Source: Synechococcus sp. CC9605
GTDB lineage: Bacteria > Cyanobacteriota > Cyanobacteriia > PCC-6307 > Cyanobiaceae
Assembly: GCF_000012625.1 (NCBI RefSeq)
Contig: NC_007516.1
Location: 1,240,001-1,304,000, forward strand
Length of the DNA stretch: 64,000 nucleotides
Direction: 5' to 3'
Position 1 is the stretch's first letter, and every line of letters begins with the position of its first letter. The notes under the pieces were generated by a model. The model was not told the origin of the DNA. It saw only the letters and a program-made list of their open reading frames with translations, and made no database searches. The translations under genes were made by a program, and so were the position numbers. This document shows positions 44,508 to 54,908 of the stretch, piece after piece.

Positions 44508-45680
44508 TCAGGAAAATGCCGCAAACACGGATGCAAAACGGCCCGGAACGGCGTCGAGATCCTGATCCGACAGCCAGGGGCCAAGGGTCAGCCGCAGGCC
44601 CGACTGACGTTCAGTCCCGGGAATGCCCATGGCGGTGAGCACAGCACTGTCGGCACTGCTGCCACTGCTGCAGGCACTGCCGCTGCTGCAGGCCACCCCC
44701 GCCGCCGCCAGCCGTCGCACCAGATCGCGTCCCGGCAGCGGCTGTCCATCAACGGTTTTCGCCAACAGTGCGATGTGATGGGGCAGACGCTGATCCGGGT
44801 GAGGGCCGCAGAGCTGAAGCTGAGGTAGCTCGAGCAGGCGTTCGAGCAGTTGATCCCGTTGACGACGGATCTGGTTCGAGCTGCCCGGTGGAATTGGCTG
44901 GCTGACGGGGTCAAAGCTGGGAAGAGCCATCAGGGCATCGGCCATGCCGCTCACCAACGCAACCGGTTCGGTGCCGGAGCGCAGGCCGTGTTCCTGGCCA
45001 CCACCGCCCTGGAGCGGTGAAAGTTCCACACCCGGGGCCCGAATCAGCAGCCCCACGCCCCGGGGGCCACAGAACTTGTGGGCCGAGAGGGTCAGCAGAT
45101 CAACCCCGAGCCGCTCGAAGGCGAAGCAACCCTGGGGCACAAGCTGGGTGGCATCGCTGTGGATGACGATGCCGCGCTCACGGCAGGCCTTGGCGATCTT
45201 GCTCACGGGTTGCAGCGCACCCACCTCTCCCTGAGCTGCGATCAGGGAGACCAGCCGGGTTGGAGCCGACAACAGCCGATCGAGCTGGTCGAGCCGAACA
45301 ACGCCCTCACGATCAACGGGCCATTCGGCAATGCTCCAGCCCAGGGCTTCGAGTTGGTGCGCGGCAGCAACCACCGCCGGATGTTCCACCGCAGAGATCA
45401 CCAACCGGCCCGGAACAAGACCTGCGGCACTGCCCAGCAGGGCGAGGTGCACGGATTCCGTCGCCCCTGAGGTGACGATCAACTGATCAGGGCTGACAGC
45501 AAAACGCTCGGCAATGCGCCAGCGGGCCCGCTCGAGAGCCTCGGCTGCTGCCAACCCGGCGCCATGAAGGCTGCTGGGGTTCGCCCAGGCCTTCTGCTGC
45601 ACCTGCTGCATCACCGCGATAACCGCCGGCAGGGGCGGTGTCGTGGCAGCAGCATCCAGATAGAGCTCAGGGCGTTCCAC
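44508..45680 (-). CDS. Cysteine desulfurase (NifS/IscS family)
   Basis: PLP enzyme that takes sulfur from cysteine for Fe-S clusters and thiolation. It starts YLDAAATTPPLP, has the PLP lysine in TLSAHKFCGPRGVG (about residue 200) and the active-site Cys loop in ACSSGSACSSGS near residue 325. The GTG start (45680) lies inside the end of dapF with a 14-bp overlap, which suggests translational coupling. The 390-aa length is normal. Confidence 0.92.
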   Translation of the reverse strand: MERPELYLDAAATTPPLPAVIAVMQQVQQKAWANPSSLHGAGLAAAEALERARWRIAERFAVSPDQLIVTSGATESVHLALLGSAAGLVPGRLVISAVEHPAVVAAAHQLEALGWSIAEWPVDREGVVRLDQLDRLLSAPTRLVSLIAAQGEVGALQPVSKIAKACRERGIVIHSDATQLVPQGCFAFERLGVDLLTLSAHKFCGPRGVGLLIRAPGVELSPLQGGGGQEHGLRSGTEPVALVSGMADALMALPSFDPVSQPIPPGSSNQIRRQRDQLLERLLELPQLQLCGPHPDQRLPHHIALLAKTVDGQPLPGRDLVRRLAAAGVACSSGSACSSGSSADSAVLTAMGIPGTERQSGLRLTLGPWLSDQDLDAVPGRFASVFAAFS

Positions 45681-46773
45681 GCTCGAACCGCGCCTTGGTG
45701 CGCTGCTCCAGGGATTCACTGGCGAGATTGAGCATCGAGTCAAGGGACGTGCTGCTGAGGAAGACCTGCACCTTCTGCTGCGCCTCATCACGGAGGCAGC
45801 GGTCAGGACGCTGGCATTGATCAGCGCAATCCTTCGAGCAATCGAAATCGGCTGCAGCCGTCGCCGCAGGTGGAGCGGCAGGGGCTTCGCTGGTCGACGC
45901 CATCGCGGAACCAGCCGGCACCATATCAGGCGTCAGCACCCCGTCAAACACCGCTTCGGCGGGTCCCGTCATCAGCACGGAACCAGTGCGATCGCGCCAC
46001 TCAATCATCAGCGGACCGCCGGGCAGCACCACCTCGGCGCAGTCATCGGCGAGGCCCAGCAACACCGCCGCCACCAGCGTGGCGCAGGCACCGGTGCCGC
46101 AGGCCAGGGTCGGGCCTGCACCCCGTTCCCAGACCCGGATCTCCAAACGTTCACGGTTGTGCACCTGGAGGAAATGAACATTGGTCTTGGCCGGGAAGGC
46201 CGGATGCACCTCCAGCGCAGCCCCCCAGGCATCAAAGGGAATGCTGGCCAAGTCGTCGACAGGCACCACCACATGGGGATTGCCCATGCCAACGGCCGCC
46301 ACCTTCAGCTGTTCTCCCTCCAGCAGCAGCACCCCCTGAGGAAGTCCGTCTTCAGGCATCAGGGTTGTGGGGATGCCTTCGGAGCTGAGGAAGGGCGGCC
46401 CCATGTCCACCCGCAACTGGCCATCGGCCATCAGTTCAGGGCGAATCATTCCCGCCAGGGTTTCGATGTCCCAGCGGCGGCCGGGAGCATCACCGTCGGT
46501 GTCGGCCAGGTAGCGGGCCAGGCAGCGAATGCCGTTGCCACACATTTCGGCCTCACTGCCATCGACATTGAGAATCCGCATCCGCAGTTCTCCATCCGCC
46601 TGAGCAGGCAGCGCCAGGATCAAGCCATCGCCACCCACACCGAAGCGCCGATCACAGATGCGGCGCACCCAGGCGGGATCGGGATTGCTGATTGCATCGG
46701 GCAGTTGTCCCTGCCGGCCTTCAACGATCAGGAAGTCATTGCCAAGTCCCTGATATTTGCTGAACTGCAACAT
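45667..46773 (-). CDS. dapF: Diaminopimelate epimerase with extra C-terminal Cys-rich domain
   Basis: Converts LL- to meso-diaminopimelate for lysine and peptidoglycan. It starts MLQFSKYQGLGNDF and has both catalytic Cys regions: AEMCGNGIRC near residue 78 and LACGTGACAT near residue 225. The normal enzyme ends near residue 285. Here about 80 more residues follow: an Ala/Pro linker, a Cys cluster (C312, C316, C320, C326) and a helical tail. The start codon lies inside the 18-bp repeat that marks the left end of the integrated element, so its upstream DNA is element DNA. Confidence 0.94.
   Translation of the reverse strand: MLQFSKYQGLGNDFLIVEGRQGQLPDAISNPDPAWVRRICDRRFGVGGDGLILALPAQADGELRMRILNVDGSEAEMCGNGIRCLARYLADTDGDAPGRRWDIETLAGMIRPELMADGQLRVDMGPPFLSSEGIPTTLMPEDGLPQGVLLLEGEQLKVAAVGMGNPHVVVPVDDLASIPFDAWGAALEVHPAFPAKTNVHFLQVHNRERLEIRVWERGAGPTLACGTGACATLVAAVLLGLADDCAEVVLPGGPLMIEWRDRTGSVLMTGPAEAVFDGVLTPDMVPAGSAMASTSEAPAAPPAATAAADFDCSKDCADQCQRPDRCLRDEAQQKVQVFLSSTSLDSMLNLASESLEQRTKARFERGTP
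46756..46773. repeat. Left attachment-site repeat, overlapping the dapF start
   Basis: The plus strand reads TTTGCTGAACTGCAACAT. On the minus strand it is the dapF start codon and codons 2-6. The matching copy is at 54642-54659 and differs only at one position (A to G), a silent third position in codon 2. Direct repeats of this size at both ends of an integrase-bearing insertion are the classic attL/attR pattern. Confidence 0.82.
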
Positions 46774-47190
46774 ATCTTTACGATCCAGTGCTGACGGGCC
46801 TTCTCAGCATTCTGTCATCTCGGAATATGCACCGGGCTACCCACTGGAAAGACAGGGCTGATGAGGGCTCACTGACCCGAGCTGTCGCTTCTTCTGTCAG
46901 TCGCCAGCCTGAGCAAGTCGATAAACACGAGCCCCTTTATTCAGAGCTGGGGGGCTCTTTTTTTTTGGGCGAACGAAACCCCACCGGCAAGTGGGCCGAG
47001 CGATGGTGGTTCCGCTGCTCCGGATCAACTGCAAATCAACTGGAGCTTTTCTGTCGTAACCCTGCTTCGACAGGGCGTGACGCATCACCTGACACCTATT
47101 GAGAGAGGGATGTCCTGAATCGATGAAACAGAGATGCACAGCTGCTGCACGCATTTACCTTCCGGTTTCAATCTGATACTCATCTTCGGC
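46774..47190. other. Left end of the element, no clear gene, possible small RNA
   Basis: The first bases inside the element carry CGTAAAGAT (minus strand, 46774-46782) and GAATATGCACCGGG (46823-46836), both also found near the right end. A strong plus-strand terminator lies at 46929-46966 with no convincing frame before it, so a short RNA starting near the left end is possible. A 104-codon frame across this terminator is not credible. Confidence 0.5.
46929..46966 (+). terminator. Strong Rho-independent terminator near the left element end
   Basis: The stem is gagcccc (46929-46935) with ggggctc (46951-46957) and is followed by nine T. It would stop plus-strand transcription entering the element from the left, or end a small RNA. 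It does not serve dapF, which runs the other way. Confidence 0.82.
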
Positions 47191-49769: not shown

Positions 49770-50195
49770 TCACAAGTGCCATAGACACTGGGCTTCGTAG
49801 TAGCTGGAGGTGTCTGGTCTCTTCGCTTTGATCCTCATCTGTTTCAGCCGGTAGCTGGGTGGACCCATCACGTCGATGGAATACCTCACCGCTTCGAGAA
49901 TCTTGGGGTGGGTGACACGCCACACGGTGTTGTTCGATCCACCGGGGTTGGGCTCCTCATGTTCGATCTGCAGGAAGCCACCATCCAACAGCTTGTTCAA
50001 AGCTCGGGCCACGGTGTCTCGCTTCAGCCCTGTCTCGATTGATAGGCCCTTGATGGTGTAGCTCGTAGTGCCCCCACGATCGCCTCTGTTGTCGTTCCCG
50101 GCTGCTTCCCACATCACTGCATAGACACGCAGCGCAGAGCTACCTAGGAGAGCCACTGCCTTTAACATCGGCATGGCATTGTCAATCCTTACCAC
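49770..50195 (-). CDS. Winged-helix DNA-binding protein, element-borne
   Basis: Predicted helix-turn-helix protein of 141 residues. The core TIKGLSIETGLKRDTVARALNKLLDGGFLQIEHEE (about residues 47-81) has the helix-turn-helix and wing arrangement seen in MarR-like and replication-initiator proteins. The N-terminal helix AMPMLKAVALLGSSALRVYAVMW fits that fold. The GTG start is at 50195; the ATG at codon 8 is an alternative. With the repeats next to it, it is a candidate regulator or replication protein of the element; the latter is speculative. Confidence 0.62.
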   Translation of the reverse strand: MVRIDNAMPMLKAVALLGSSALRVYAVMWEAAGNDNRGDRGGTTSYTIKGLSIETGLKRDTVARALNKLLDGGFLQIEHEEPNPGGSNNTVWRVTHPKILEAVRYSIDVMGPPSYRLKQMRIKAKRPDTSSYYEAQCLWHL

Positions 50196-51213
50196 CGCTT
50201 AATTGAGGTTCTAATTTAATAATCAGGGGTAGACAACAACCATGACTGCAGGGCGAAGAATCGTCCTGAAGGCGCCTCGGCCCTGTCTTCTATAATAATC
50301 CACTTAATGTTATTTTGAAGCCCCTTCTAGCGTCTTCTGGAGGGGTCTCAGAGCATTTCTGTATAGCCGAAACACTCCTCATATCAAGTGTCATCGAAAA
50401 GGGTTGGTGAAAATTCGATTTCCGCTCTTTCGGACTCACCATATGGCTTGAACCTGTTGTGAGTCATGCACTACGACTTACGCAATGTGCAACGGGTTGA
50501 CTACACAAAAGCCTTTTGTCCACAAAAAACCAACAGATCCAATAGGACCTAGAAGCTGATATCAAACCGAACATTCTCAGAAAAAATGCAAACTATCGCT
50601 GCGGGGCTCCAGAGGCGGGATCAGCCAGCGGGTTAAACCTGGTCATGAACCACGCGCCTGCCGATCACAACCTGGTCACATGGGTGCATCAACTTGAGGT
50701 CGGCGAGAAGAGCTGCACCCCTGGGACTGAAACCACCAGGGGTCTTTCTTGCCGTAGCGGAGGGGAGGCTTACGGCTGCCTCCTTCTCCCTAACCACTGA
50801 TCAGCGGTTCCAGATCGCCTTACTTACTGACAGACCCCTCCGTCGGTAGGTCAACAACCGAAGCAAGGACTTGGGGCCACGGAACTGCGAGGAGGAACTA
50901 GTCCTCCCCAAGCGATGCAGTATCCGCTTAAACACGTTCGGCGCGTTACAAACCTCTTACGCAAATGCACCAAATGTCTTCAGATTTTTGATAAGCGCAG
51001 AAAGCAACCCCTGACATCGCTCATGCCAAGGGTGCCTTGACTGCCAGCTGACGGGTCGCTCTCCCGTGCTGCCAAGACAGTGACAAGTGGCACCGCCTGG
51101 ACACCAAATATGGGGGCAGTTGGGAGGATCTGCAGCGATTTCTCCGGCAAATATCAGTTCCCTGAAAAACGCCTAAGAGAATTCTCATTTGTATTGCTTG
51201 CTACTGCAAGTGA
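50196..51213. other. Gene-free kilobase with a cluster of hairpins
   Basis: No supported gene. Three stem-loops lie close together: cccctgg/ccagggg (50718-50724 and 50736-50742, then tctttctt), ggaggc/gcctcc (50764-50769 and 50778-50783), and ggagga/tcctcc (50891-50896 and 50902-50907). The first looks like a weak terminator. A structured RNA is possible. Confidence 0.45.
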
Positions 51214-53374: not shown

Positions 53375-54577
53375 TCATAACGAAAGCAACTCCAATGCCT
53401 TCCGTTTGGCGTCCATCGTCACGCTGCCATACCTGTTGGTGCTGGTCTTCGGAGTGTGACCAAGGATCGAACCAATCACGAACTCATTGACACCGTGAGC
53501 TCTCAGCACCGTCGTCGCTGCATCTCTGCAGGCCTTGGGTGAGACACCAATCCTCCGATGCCATGACATTCCATTGCCCCATCGCTTGTATTTGTCCTCG
53601 TACAAGCCTGGGAAAACGTATCCCTTGATGCCTCTCAGTTTCGCACCTTCGATGTGCTTCCTCAGGGCTGGGATGATTGGAATATCTCTGACCCTGTATG
53701 CGTTCTTGACTGGGCGAAGATCGTTCTCGCGGATGTGGAAGATGCCTTGCTCAAGATCAATATCGTCGGCTCTGATTCCTGCTGCTTCTGAGACGTGACA
53801 GCCGGAGTATTTCATCAGCCAATACAACAACTGTTGATGGTCAGGCAGTTTGTGGATGAGTTTGTCGGCTTCATCCAACAGCTGGACCTCTTTTGGCTTG
53901 CTCTTGGCCTTGATCCGCTTGAGCTTGATGGCGTTGAAGGGGTTCCTCTCAATCCAGTCCTCTTCCTCTGCAACCTCAAACAACGCCTTCACATACCTAA
54001 GCCTGGTCTTGGTGGTTGACGCTTGAACTGAATCCAACAGGTGGTCCCGGTACTTCCTGGCATGTGCCTCTGTGACCTGATCCACTGACTCGACACCAGC
54101 CACCTCCATCGCCTTGGAGAGATGCCTCTTCCATTCACCCAGCGTTGAAGGTGCTGGATCCTTCAGACGTACAGCCAAGTCGATCAGATCCTGCCAACTG
54201 CGTTCGACAGGGAGACCAGCCTCGATCCGTGACTGCCTCTCTACGACCCTGTGTGCCTCTTCATCAGTGAGTTTGGGACAGAGGTCAGTTGGTCCCATTC
54301 CCTCCTGTTCAAGGACCACAGAGGTGGGTGTCTCTGCACGCGGTGATCGAGAGACCACCTCCATCAGTGCATCCACGTCCCCTCGCGCCTCTGCAATCGC
54401 TCGGTCAGTCATGACCAAGAACTCAGGAACGGATCTCCTGGCCTCGGTCAGGTCGTTGCCTGCCTTCCATCTCCAGTGCTTCTTGCCAAGCCTTGCTTGG
54501 AGGTCCTTCGGCACAGCTCTGACAAAATACAGACCGGGCTTGGTGCCGAGTCTCTGAAGGTATGGAGATATGCCCAC
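53375..54577 (-). CDS. Tyrosine recombinase (integrase) with atypical catalytic residues
   Basis: Predicted site-specific recombinase of the element. The N-terminal part (YLQRLGTKPGLYFVRAVPKDLQ) resembles phage-type integrases, followed by a SAM-like core-binding domain (about residues 110-220) and a catalytic domain. The catalytic Tyr is in TSTNRYGSV (Y383), with His in LGHTP (H374), Lys291 and Arg351. The usual first Arg is His261 (YSGCHVSE) and the usual box II His is Lys348 (SPKACRD). The GTG start lies 65 bp from the right repeat. Confidence 0.88.
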   Translation of the reverse strand: MGISPYLQRLGTKPGLYFVRAVPKDLQARLGKKHWRWKAGNDLTEARRSVPEFLVMTDRAIAEARGDVDALMEVVSRSPRAETPTSVVLEQEGMGPTDLCPKLTDEEAHRVVERQSRIEAGLPVERSWQDLIDLAVRLKDPAPSTLGEWKRHLSKAMEVAGVESVDQVTEAHARKYRDHLLDSVQASTTKTRLRYVKALFEVAEEEDWIERNPFNAIKLKRIKAKSKPKEVQLLDEADKLIHKLPDHQQLLYWLMKYSGCHVSEAAGIRADDIDLEQGIFHIRENDLRPVKNAYRVRDIPIIPALRKHIEGAKLRGIKGYVFPGLYEDKYKRWGNGMSWHRRIGVSPKACRDAATTVLRAHGVNEFVIGSILGHTPKTSTNRYGSVTMDAKRKALELLSL

Positions 54578-54641
54578 GAATATGCACTGGGATGTCAGTA
54601 ACCGTAAAGATCCCAGTCAACCGTAGCTATTTGGCCGTGTC

Positions 54642-54659
54642 TTTGCTGAACTGCAGCAT
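54642..54659. repeat. Right attachment-site repeat with remnant of the dapF 5' end
   Basis: The plus strand reads TTTGCTGAACTGCAGCAT. On the minus strand it gives ATG and the codons MLQFSK, identical in protein to the dapF start at 46773, then diverges into DTAK and a stop at 54627. It lies 27 bp before the hfq ATG, which is where dapF would start if the element were absent. Confidence 0.82.
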
Positions 54660-54686
54660 GCGTGGCCGGTATTGCCGCCGAATCCT

Positions 54687-54908
54687 ATGGAGACATCTCC
54701 ACTCGATCCAAGCCTTCCGGGGGTTCGGTTGCTGCAGAGCTGGATCCGTGAACAGCTCCCCCTCAGCATTGGATTGGTGGGGCAGGAGCCCATAGAGGGG
54801 CGTCTGATCTGGCAGGACCCTGAATTTCTGGCCATCGAACGAGCGGGCACCAGCCGGCCCGTGCTGATCAACCGGCGTCAGATCAGCGTGATCCGCTCCC
54901 TCGGCTGA
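54687..54908 (+). CDS. hfq: Cyanobacterial-type Hfq protein
   Basis: Sm-fold protein of 73 residues. The pattern [43 protein letters not shown] and [12 protein letters not shown] (residues 8-73) matches cyanobacterial Hfq, which forms hexamers but differs from enterobacterial Hfq in its RNA-binding face and has been tied to type IV pilus function. hfq is commonly beside dapF in cyanobacteria; here they are separated by the element. leuS follows after about 46 bp. Confidence 0.88.

Follow-up and report, generated by a model that had tools for sequence, protein, structure and literature searches.

The 5′ end of dapF as an integration site in marine Synechococcus: an element that parts the gene from its native upstream DNA and brings it a new start

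The genes dapF (diaminopimelate epimerase) and hfq (cyanobacterial Hfq-related protein) stand back to back in many picocyanobacteria, and in Synechococcus sp. CC9605 a 7,886-bp integrative element lies between them. The arrangement raises the question of which upstream DNA serves each gene when the element is in place. The window analyzed here is a stretch of 64,000 nucleotides (NC_007516.1, positions 1,240,001 to 1,304,000) from this single-contig genome (2,510,659 bp), and all positions refer to it unless stated otherwise. dapF occupies 45667-46773 on the minus strand (TIGR00652 DapF above cut-off; Pfam DAP_epimerase), and hfq occupies 54687-54908 on the plus strand, with its ATG at 54687 (NF047718 above cut-off; PF21979 Hfq_1). 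The dapF frame extends ∼80 codons past the conserved domain and overlaps a neighboring frame (44508-45791) over 45667-45791. A first-pass annotation proposed that the insertion displaces the upstream regions of both genes, and that excision or insertion would alter the control of the two together. The reading we favor, with a probability of roughly two in three, is that the element integrates at the 5′ end of dapF, leaves the old dapF promoter beside its own int gene, and gives dapF a new start.

The element differs from its surroundings in base composition, with a G+C of 0.40-0.57 in 500-base windows versus 0.60-0.67 outside, and it is bordered by a direct repeat (D10) that equals dapF codons 1-6. 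The left copy, TTTGCTGAACTGCAACAT at 46756-46773, reads as dapF codons 6-1 and is identical in 17 of 18 bases to the right copy, TTTGCTGAACTGCAGCAT at 54642-54659, which holds the original dapF start codon. From this old start codon, the minus strand runs on into element DNA as the fused remnant MLQFSKDTAK followed by a stop (10 codons, 54627-54659); position 54627, taken in the first-pass annotation as the left limit of the affected segment, is the end of this remnant. On the other side of the right copy lie the native 27-bp dapF/hfq gap (54660-54686) and hfq, which keeps 45 bp of native upstream DNA (the gap plus the 18-bp repeat). The earlier statement that dapF, starting at 46773 on the minus strand, is preceded by the left end of the element is correct, whereas the companion statement that the right end directly precedes hfq is not.

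Beginning 64 bp inside the right end and read away from hfq, int (53375-54577, minus strand) encodes a 400-residue tyrosine-recombinase-type integrase (Pfam Phage_integrase, 30.9 bits, cut-off 27.1; PHROG integrase, E = 1.9e-37). The element is otherwise poor in recognizable genes. It encodes a replication-initiation-like protein (49770-50195; PHROG E = 5.6e-6) and small proteins, two of which appear secreted- or lipoprotein-like by eye; no conjugation gene was found among nine element proteins scanned against Pfam and PHROG, and a defense-family search with five of its proteins gave one weak match (E = 0.0036). There is no tRNA at either end, the sole tRNA in the window lying at 721-794. Near the dapF end, a terminator-like hairpin and T run (46931-46965, plus strand) is directed into the element; such sites are not enriched in the window (nine found versus 6.9 expected from shuffles). 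The element also contains a Cyano-2 RNA (RF01702, 181 bits; 50872-51073, minus strand), and a second one lies in foreign DNA upstream of dapF in congener G028 (contig C20, 4436-4639, minus strand; L075). Since Cyano-2 matches occur in 24 of 34 congeners, with up to seven per genome and matches above the family cut-off in 19 of 34, this RNA may travel with islands. The same foreign DNA of G028 encodes a DUF2939 protein (L075 567-1196, minus strand) that matches the candidate defense family PDC-S55 (E = 9e-38).

Relatives supply the site in its empty, occupied, and scarred states. In a set of 34 congeneric genomes, CC9605 included, hfq was found in 30, and 20 of the 34 have the two genes side by side, only 26-27 bp lying between their starts, which bears out the earlier estimate of 27 bp without the element. 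The close relative G023 (L003) has an empty site whose flanks equal those of CC9605 except for single-base differences. A right junction with foreign DNA is present in seven of the 34, namely CC9605 itself (G000), G033, G030, G007, G015, G028, and G019. In all seven, TTTGCTGAAC and the native flank are preserved toward hfq and foreign DNA lies past them; G015 and G019 carry base changes elsewhere in the 18-mer. dapF is on another contig in G033, G030, and G028, so the two element ends are unlinked there. In G014 and G032 contig ends cut the site off, but foreign DNA is present upstream of dapF; G018 and G005 have gaps of ∼3.8 and 13.5 kb in which the right junction was not recognized; and in G010 the gap is 247 bp and dapF has an element-type start, a state we read as a scar. 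dapF is present and hfq undetected in G029, and neither was detected in G009. The 12 occupied or affected genomes counted below include G018 and G005 (right junction unrecognized), G014 and G032 (dapF side only), and G010 (scar).

The site is also occupied in another genus of the family, where G131 has a 4.3-kb insert at the same position with a related integrase and a repeat that reads CTTGCTGAA, a one-base variant of TTTGCTGAAC. G007 and G131 are single-contig assemblies, and in both the same contig spans the insert and its two neighbors, dapF and hfq. Elsewhere in the family G169 resembles a scar, and G195 and G183 have ∼0.6-kb gaps with an element-type dapF start. dapF and hfq are close and divergent in 36 further family stretches; these come from 40 stretches picked from listed coordinates, mostly for adjacency, so that 36 of 40 is not a frequency.

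Both sides of the junction carry information about the crossover. In the hfq-side copy, TTTGCTGAA is preceded by C in six of the seven occupied congeners (A in G019), and by A in the empty sites. On the dapF side, the native frame resumes at about codon 4, and codon 3 is non-native in 8 of the 12 occupied or affected genomes; in 8 of 12 the protein begins MLS, VLS, MLA, VLP, or MIA, not the native MLQ or MLH. In CC9605 the start of the DapF protein is unchanged (MLQ). The non-native third codon and the base change on the hfq side together suggest a crossover within or beside TTTGCTGAA (dapF codons 4-6). The dapF start codon and all DNA upstream of it are brought by the element, often along with codons 2-3. 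The insertion lies within the 5′ codons of dapF and the reading frame is restored, the first 286 codons being open in each of the 12 occupied or affected genomes. Each occupied genome searched has one dapF match, G010 having a second, partial match on another contig. Because dapF is single copy and open in the occupied genomes, it is presumably expressed from element DNA; being presumed essential as well, it must stay expressed. The segment directly upstream of dapF (46774-46930, minus strand), which is the element's left end, would then provide a replacement promoter and leader.

More than one kind of integrase uses this site. The first type comprises the integrase of CC9605, those of G007, G033, and G131 (42, 41, and 40% identical to it, respectively), and a broken copy in G019. 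A search with the CC9605 integrase gave no match in either G030 or G028, and BLASTP detects no similarity between it and the integrase of G030, which scores 25.7 bits against Pfam Phage_integrase, just under the cut-off of 27.1. Both types match the broad PHROG integrase family, and from these comparisons the dapF/hfq site is used by two integrase types that lack mutual BLASTP similarity. int is oriented away from hfq in all six loci, with another open frame intervening in G131; because the attachment site fixes the orientation within one integrase type, these amount to at most two independent cases. Tyrosine recombinases have a catalytic arginine in box I. The type found in CC9605 has a histidine aligned to this arginine (SG-C/A-H or TG-T/S/A-H, as read in 53375-54577 and in loci L069, L070, L084, L085, and L169), and the integrases beside an aminotransferase gene have arginine at that position.

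Several observations concern these integrases at other sites. CC9605 has a second related integrase, with 42% identity (G000:C1:1150496-1151710; L084 4494-5714), which directly follows a gene read as glyS and is fronted by similar GGGCCTA/GGGCATA repeats. The idea that related integrases always take 5′ ends was dropped, because others, with neighbors as read, follow glyS or marC or adjoin a class V aminotransferase gene or purC. More distant integrases lie ∼35-45 bp from, and divergent to, a class V aminotransferase-like gene in G012, G020, G024, and G004 (loci L086, L211, L212, L214, and L219), and no tRNA was found near this recurrent site. In viral contigs no relative of the CC9605 integrase was found, and two matches to the 18-bp site, in which no dapF start context was seen, were taken as chance. 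A dapF-alignment scan of genome contigs kept 80 loci, ∼18 of them picocyanobacterial, and was not used in the analysis.

The DNA from which dapF is parted contains a conserved box that we interpret as its −10 element. CATANGAT occurs on the dapF strand in 46 and TANGAT in 48 of 56 family upstream regions, 27-45 bp before dapF; of the other eight, by eye, four have TAAAAT, two TAGAAT, and two neither. TANGAT is found in 0 of 56 regions on the opposite strand and at a mean of 2.4 and a maximum of 10 in 200 Markov resamples, a comparison in which the 56 regions are related to each other, the resampling ignores phylogeny, and the motif partly coincides with the hfq start codon. The count starts from 61 regions with hfq and dapF on the same short stretch, from which L029 (scar) and L169-L172 (insertions or scars) were dropped. 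The CAT of the box is the complement of the hfq start codon; two regions from one other genus (L200 and L203) keep TAAGAT without CAT. The hfq strand has no ribosome-binding site directly before the ATG. In the window the box (TAGGAT, 54682-54687, minus strand) takes in the first base of the hfq ATG; it has remained with hfq and faces the int start 104 bp away. The native dapF promoter would thus be left on the far side of the element, pointing at int, and may transcribe it. The first-pass claim that dapF is cut off from its native upstream region is upheld by the position of this box, and we regard the separation as well supported. That the old box now faces int and that dapF takes its start codon from the element are additions to the first-pass annotation.

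For hfq, displacement of the upstream region finds indirect evolutionary support in synonymous sites of dapF. Codons 1-10 have a synonymous identity of 0.89 among 18 of the 20 empty genomes, and 10-codon windows beyond codon 60 in the same genomes average 0.46 and reach 0.62 at most. Codons 6-16 lie at or beyond the crossover; here 19 of the 20 empty genomes (G013, with only 104 dapF codons, left aside) give an identity of 0.77 and the 12 occupied or affected genomes one of 0.61, and from codon 21 onward the values are 0.47 and 0.50. A difference this large at codons 6-16 was reached in 12 of 2000 label permutations, which ignore phylogeny. Leu10 is encoded by CTT in all 19 empty genomes versus 7 of the 12 occupied or affected ones (Fisher P = 0.005), and synonymous differences to the nearest empty relative number 16 versus 62.5 expected in empty genomes and 25 versus 35.5 expected in occupied ones. 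G018, G010, and G005 contribute much of the excess in the occupied group, and relaxation is absent from CC9605 itself (1 of 11 synonymous differences at codons 6-16 versus 0.08 in the rest). Three control genes have a 5′ excess smaller than that of dapF or none: codons 1-10 versus the rest give 0.69/0.64 for purC (six of eight sequences used), 0.55/0.58 for leuS (18 of 19), and 0.63/0.61 for the aminotransferase (nine of nine), which shows a modest excess at codons 6-16 (0.75 versus 0.61). The pattern points to a role for sequence within the beginning of dapF, either for hfq or for the dapF start region, and to a loss of constraint upon insertion. Translation initiation of dapF, as opposed to hfq, may be what codons 6-16 are conserved for. 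Taken with the box, the conservation fits a split, overlapping control region in which hfq would keep 45 bp of native upstream DNA and lose a conserved stretch within dapF codons 6-16. That hfq loses control sequence in this way is plausible, and its expression may then change upon insertion.

A competing account is that only the control of dapF has moved, hfq being unaffected in practice because its promoter lies in the retained 45 bp or its transcripts start in element DNA. This is a live alternative, at somewhat under even odds, and the native DNA still upstream of hfq and an open hfq in five of the seven congeners with a confirmed right junction speak for it. Against it, a −10-like sequence in the hfq direction and conserved across empty strains was not seen by eye in the retained gap, and in occupied genomes the synonymous sites upstream of hfq are less constrained. 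hfq is also broken in the occupied G028 and G019, though likewise in the empty G027; the three interrupted genes lie in loci L026, L030, and L031. A plus-strand candidate −10 for hfq, GATATT in dapF codons 6-8, was a guess and was set aside, since it is not conserved outside the genus.

Under the favored reading, the end that now adjoins dapF would drive it. A generic sigma-70 scan returned no site at either end, and it likewise missed the native box; its total in the window is at chance level (eight found versus 7.1 expected). No shared promoter motif is recognizable across the left ends, of which some (G014, G007, G015, and G032) have TAGGAT, TAGGCT, or TAAAAT near the dapF start and others do not. 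What recurs at the ends is repeats. GGGCCTAG n5 GGGCCTAG direct repeats in G033, GGGCATAC and GGGCTTAC/GGGCTTAG pairs in G007, and AATACCAAC-like repeats in G030 and G028 are each found at both ends of the same element, and similar repeats lie near int in G019 and G131. Candidates of this kind in CC9605, identified by eye on the minus strand, are GTGCATAT n4 GGGCATAT at the int start (54568-54587) and GGTGCATATTCCG in the left end (46821-46833), which resembles the right-end sites. Because the same repeats recur at the int end, they look like integrase arm sites, and for the same reason the GGGCCTAG-type repeats beside dapF were dropped as promoters.

The lack of a clear common promoter in the left ends accords with a second alternative, that the element is a neutral passenger: any promoter-like end would serve dapF, the box would be idle for int, and box decay and codon relaxation would reflect insertion age. 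The fate of the box bears on this. TANNAT stands at the box position in 20 of 20 empty congeners, in five of five occupied congeners with int, and in none of five occupied or scarred congeners without a working int; this count leaves out G014 and G032 and takes G028 as having int from the 311 open codons read. In the other genus, G131, with int, keeps the box, and the scar of G169 is without it. The presence of int is confounded with insertion age, and box loss, which coincides with int absence, could simply reflect that age. However, age alone leaves the strong constraint in empty genomes unexplained, and we consider the passenger account rather unlikely.

An extension of the favored reading is a relay of promoters. 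With the element integrated, int would be expressed from the host dapF promoter and dapF from the left end; once the element had excised as a circle, transcription from that end would cross the rejoined attachment site and enter int. Were this so, whether the element is in or out would set the expression of the integrase, of a cell-wall gene, and of hfq at once, and the old host promoter would persist only while it served int. We regard this exchange of promoters as improbable. To an assembly or annotation artifact we give practically no credence: CC9605 is one contig, the junction recurs in six more congeners and one other genus, and the insert is flanked by both genes in the single-contig G007 and G131.

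Integration at a 5′ end that re-supplies promoter and N-terminus is already known from dusA and prfC elements. In the sections of PMC8409611 and PMC4482086 that treat them, the dusA elements (IMEVchUSA3 and the DAI islands) give their target new 5′ sequence, SXT at prfC is cited alongside, and PMC8409611 demonstrates a new promoter for dusA by lacZ fusions. Like the element described here, dusA elements carry an integrase, enter a housekeeping gene at its 5′ end, and supply new 5′ sequence; they differ in their hosts (Vibrio, Acinetobacter, and Pseudomonas) and in the lacZ evidence for the promoter, whereas here the target is dapF, 27 bp from divergent hfq, and the promoter is deduced. The dusA-specific integrase family is defined by insertion in dusA, and by that mark the present element, with dapF as its target, falls outside it. 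SXT is a conjugative element of Vibrio with another target, and none of the nine dapF-element proteins scanned is a conjugation gene product. SpyCI islands at the mutL 5′ end, as covered in part of PMC3430984, separate mutL from its promoter; one strain regains expression through a promoter within the decayed int, and SpyCIM1 turns mutL off and leaves the site according to growth phase. These islands, like the dapF element, part a gene from its promoter at its 5′ end, but SpyCIM1 silences its target, whereas dapF, single copy and presumed essential, must stay expressed.

Tycheposons, which target tRNA genes, are like the dapF element in being mobile elements of marine picocyanobacteria and differ from it in that neither of its ends has a tRNA. 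The portion of PMC10187409 concerned describes them from Prochlorococcus as mobile elements of marine picocyanobacteria and ties a picocyanobacterial integrase to tRNA-Phe and tRNA-Cys. For WH 8102 and MIT 9313, PMC1242208 had already placed hfq in the dapF-leuS region. The main text of PMC2441476 mentions neither hfq nor diaminopimelate, and a literature search, largely outside subscription journals, gave no report of dapF/hfq as an integration site among the papers listed.

These findings describe a housekeeping gene in marine cyanobacteria that passes from host to mobile-element upstream DNA, with the empty, occupied, and scarred states all available for comparison. The same start-codon site has been chosen by elements with two BLASTP-unrelated integrase types, and genomes whose int is gone have also lost the promoter-like box left behind. 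Together, the three states, the two integrase types, and the loss of the box make the consequences for both divergent neighbors testable by strain comparison.
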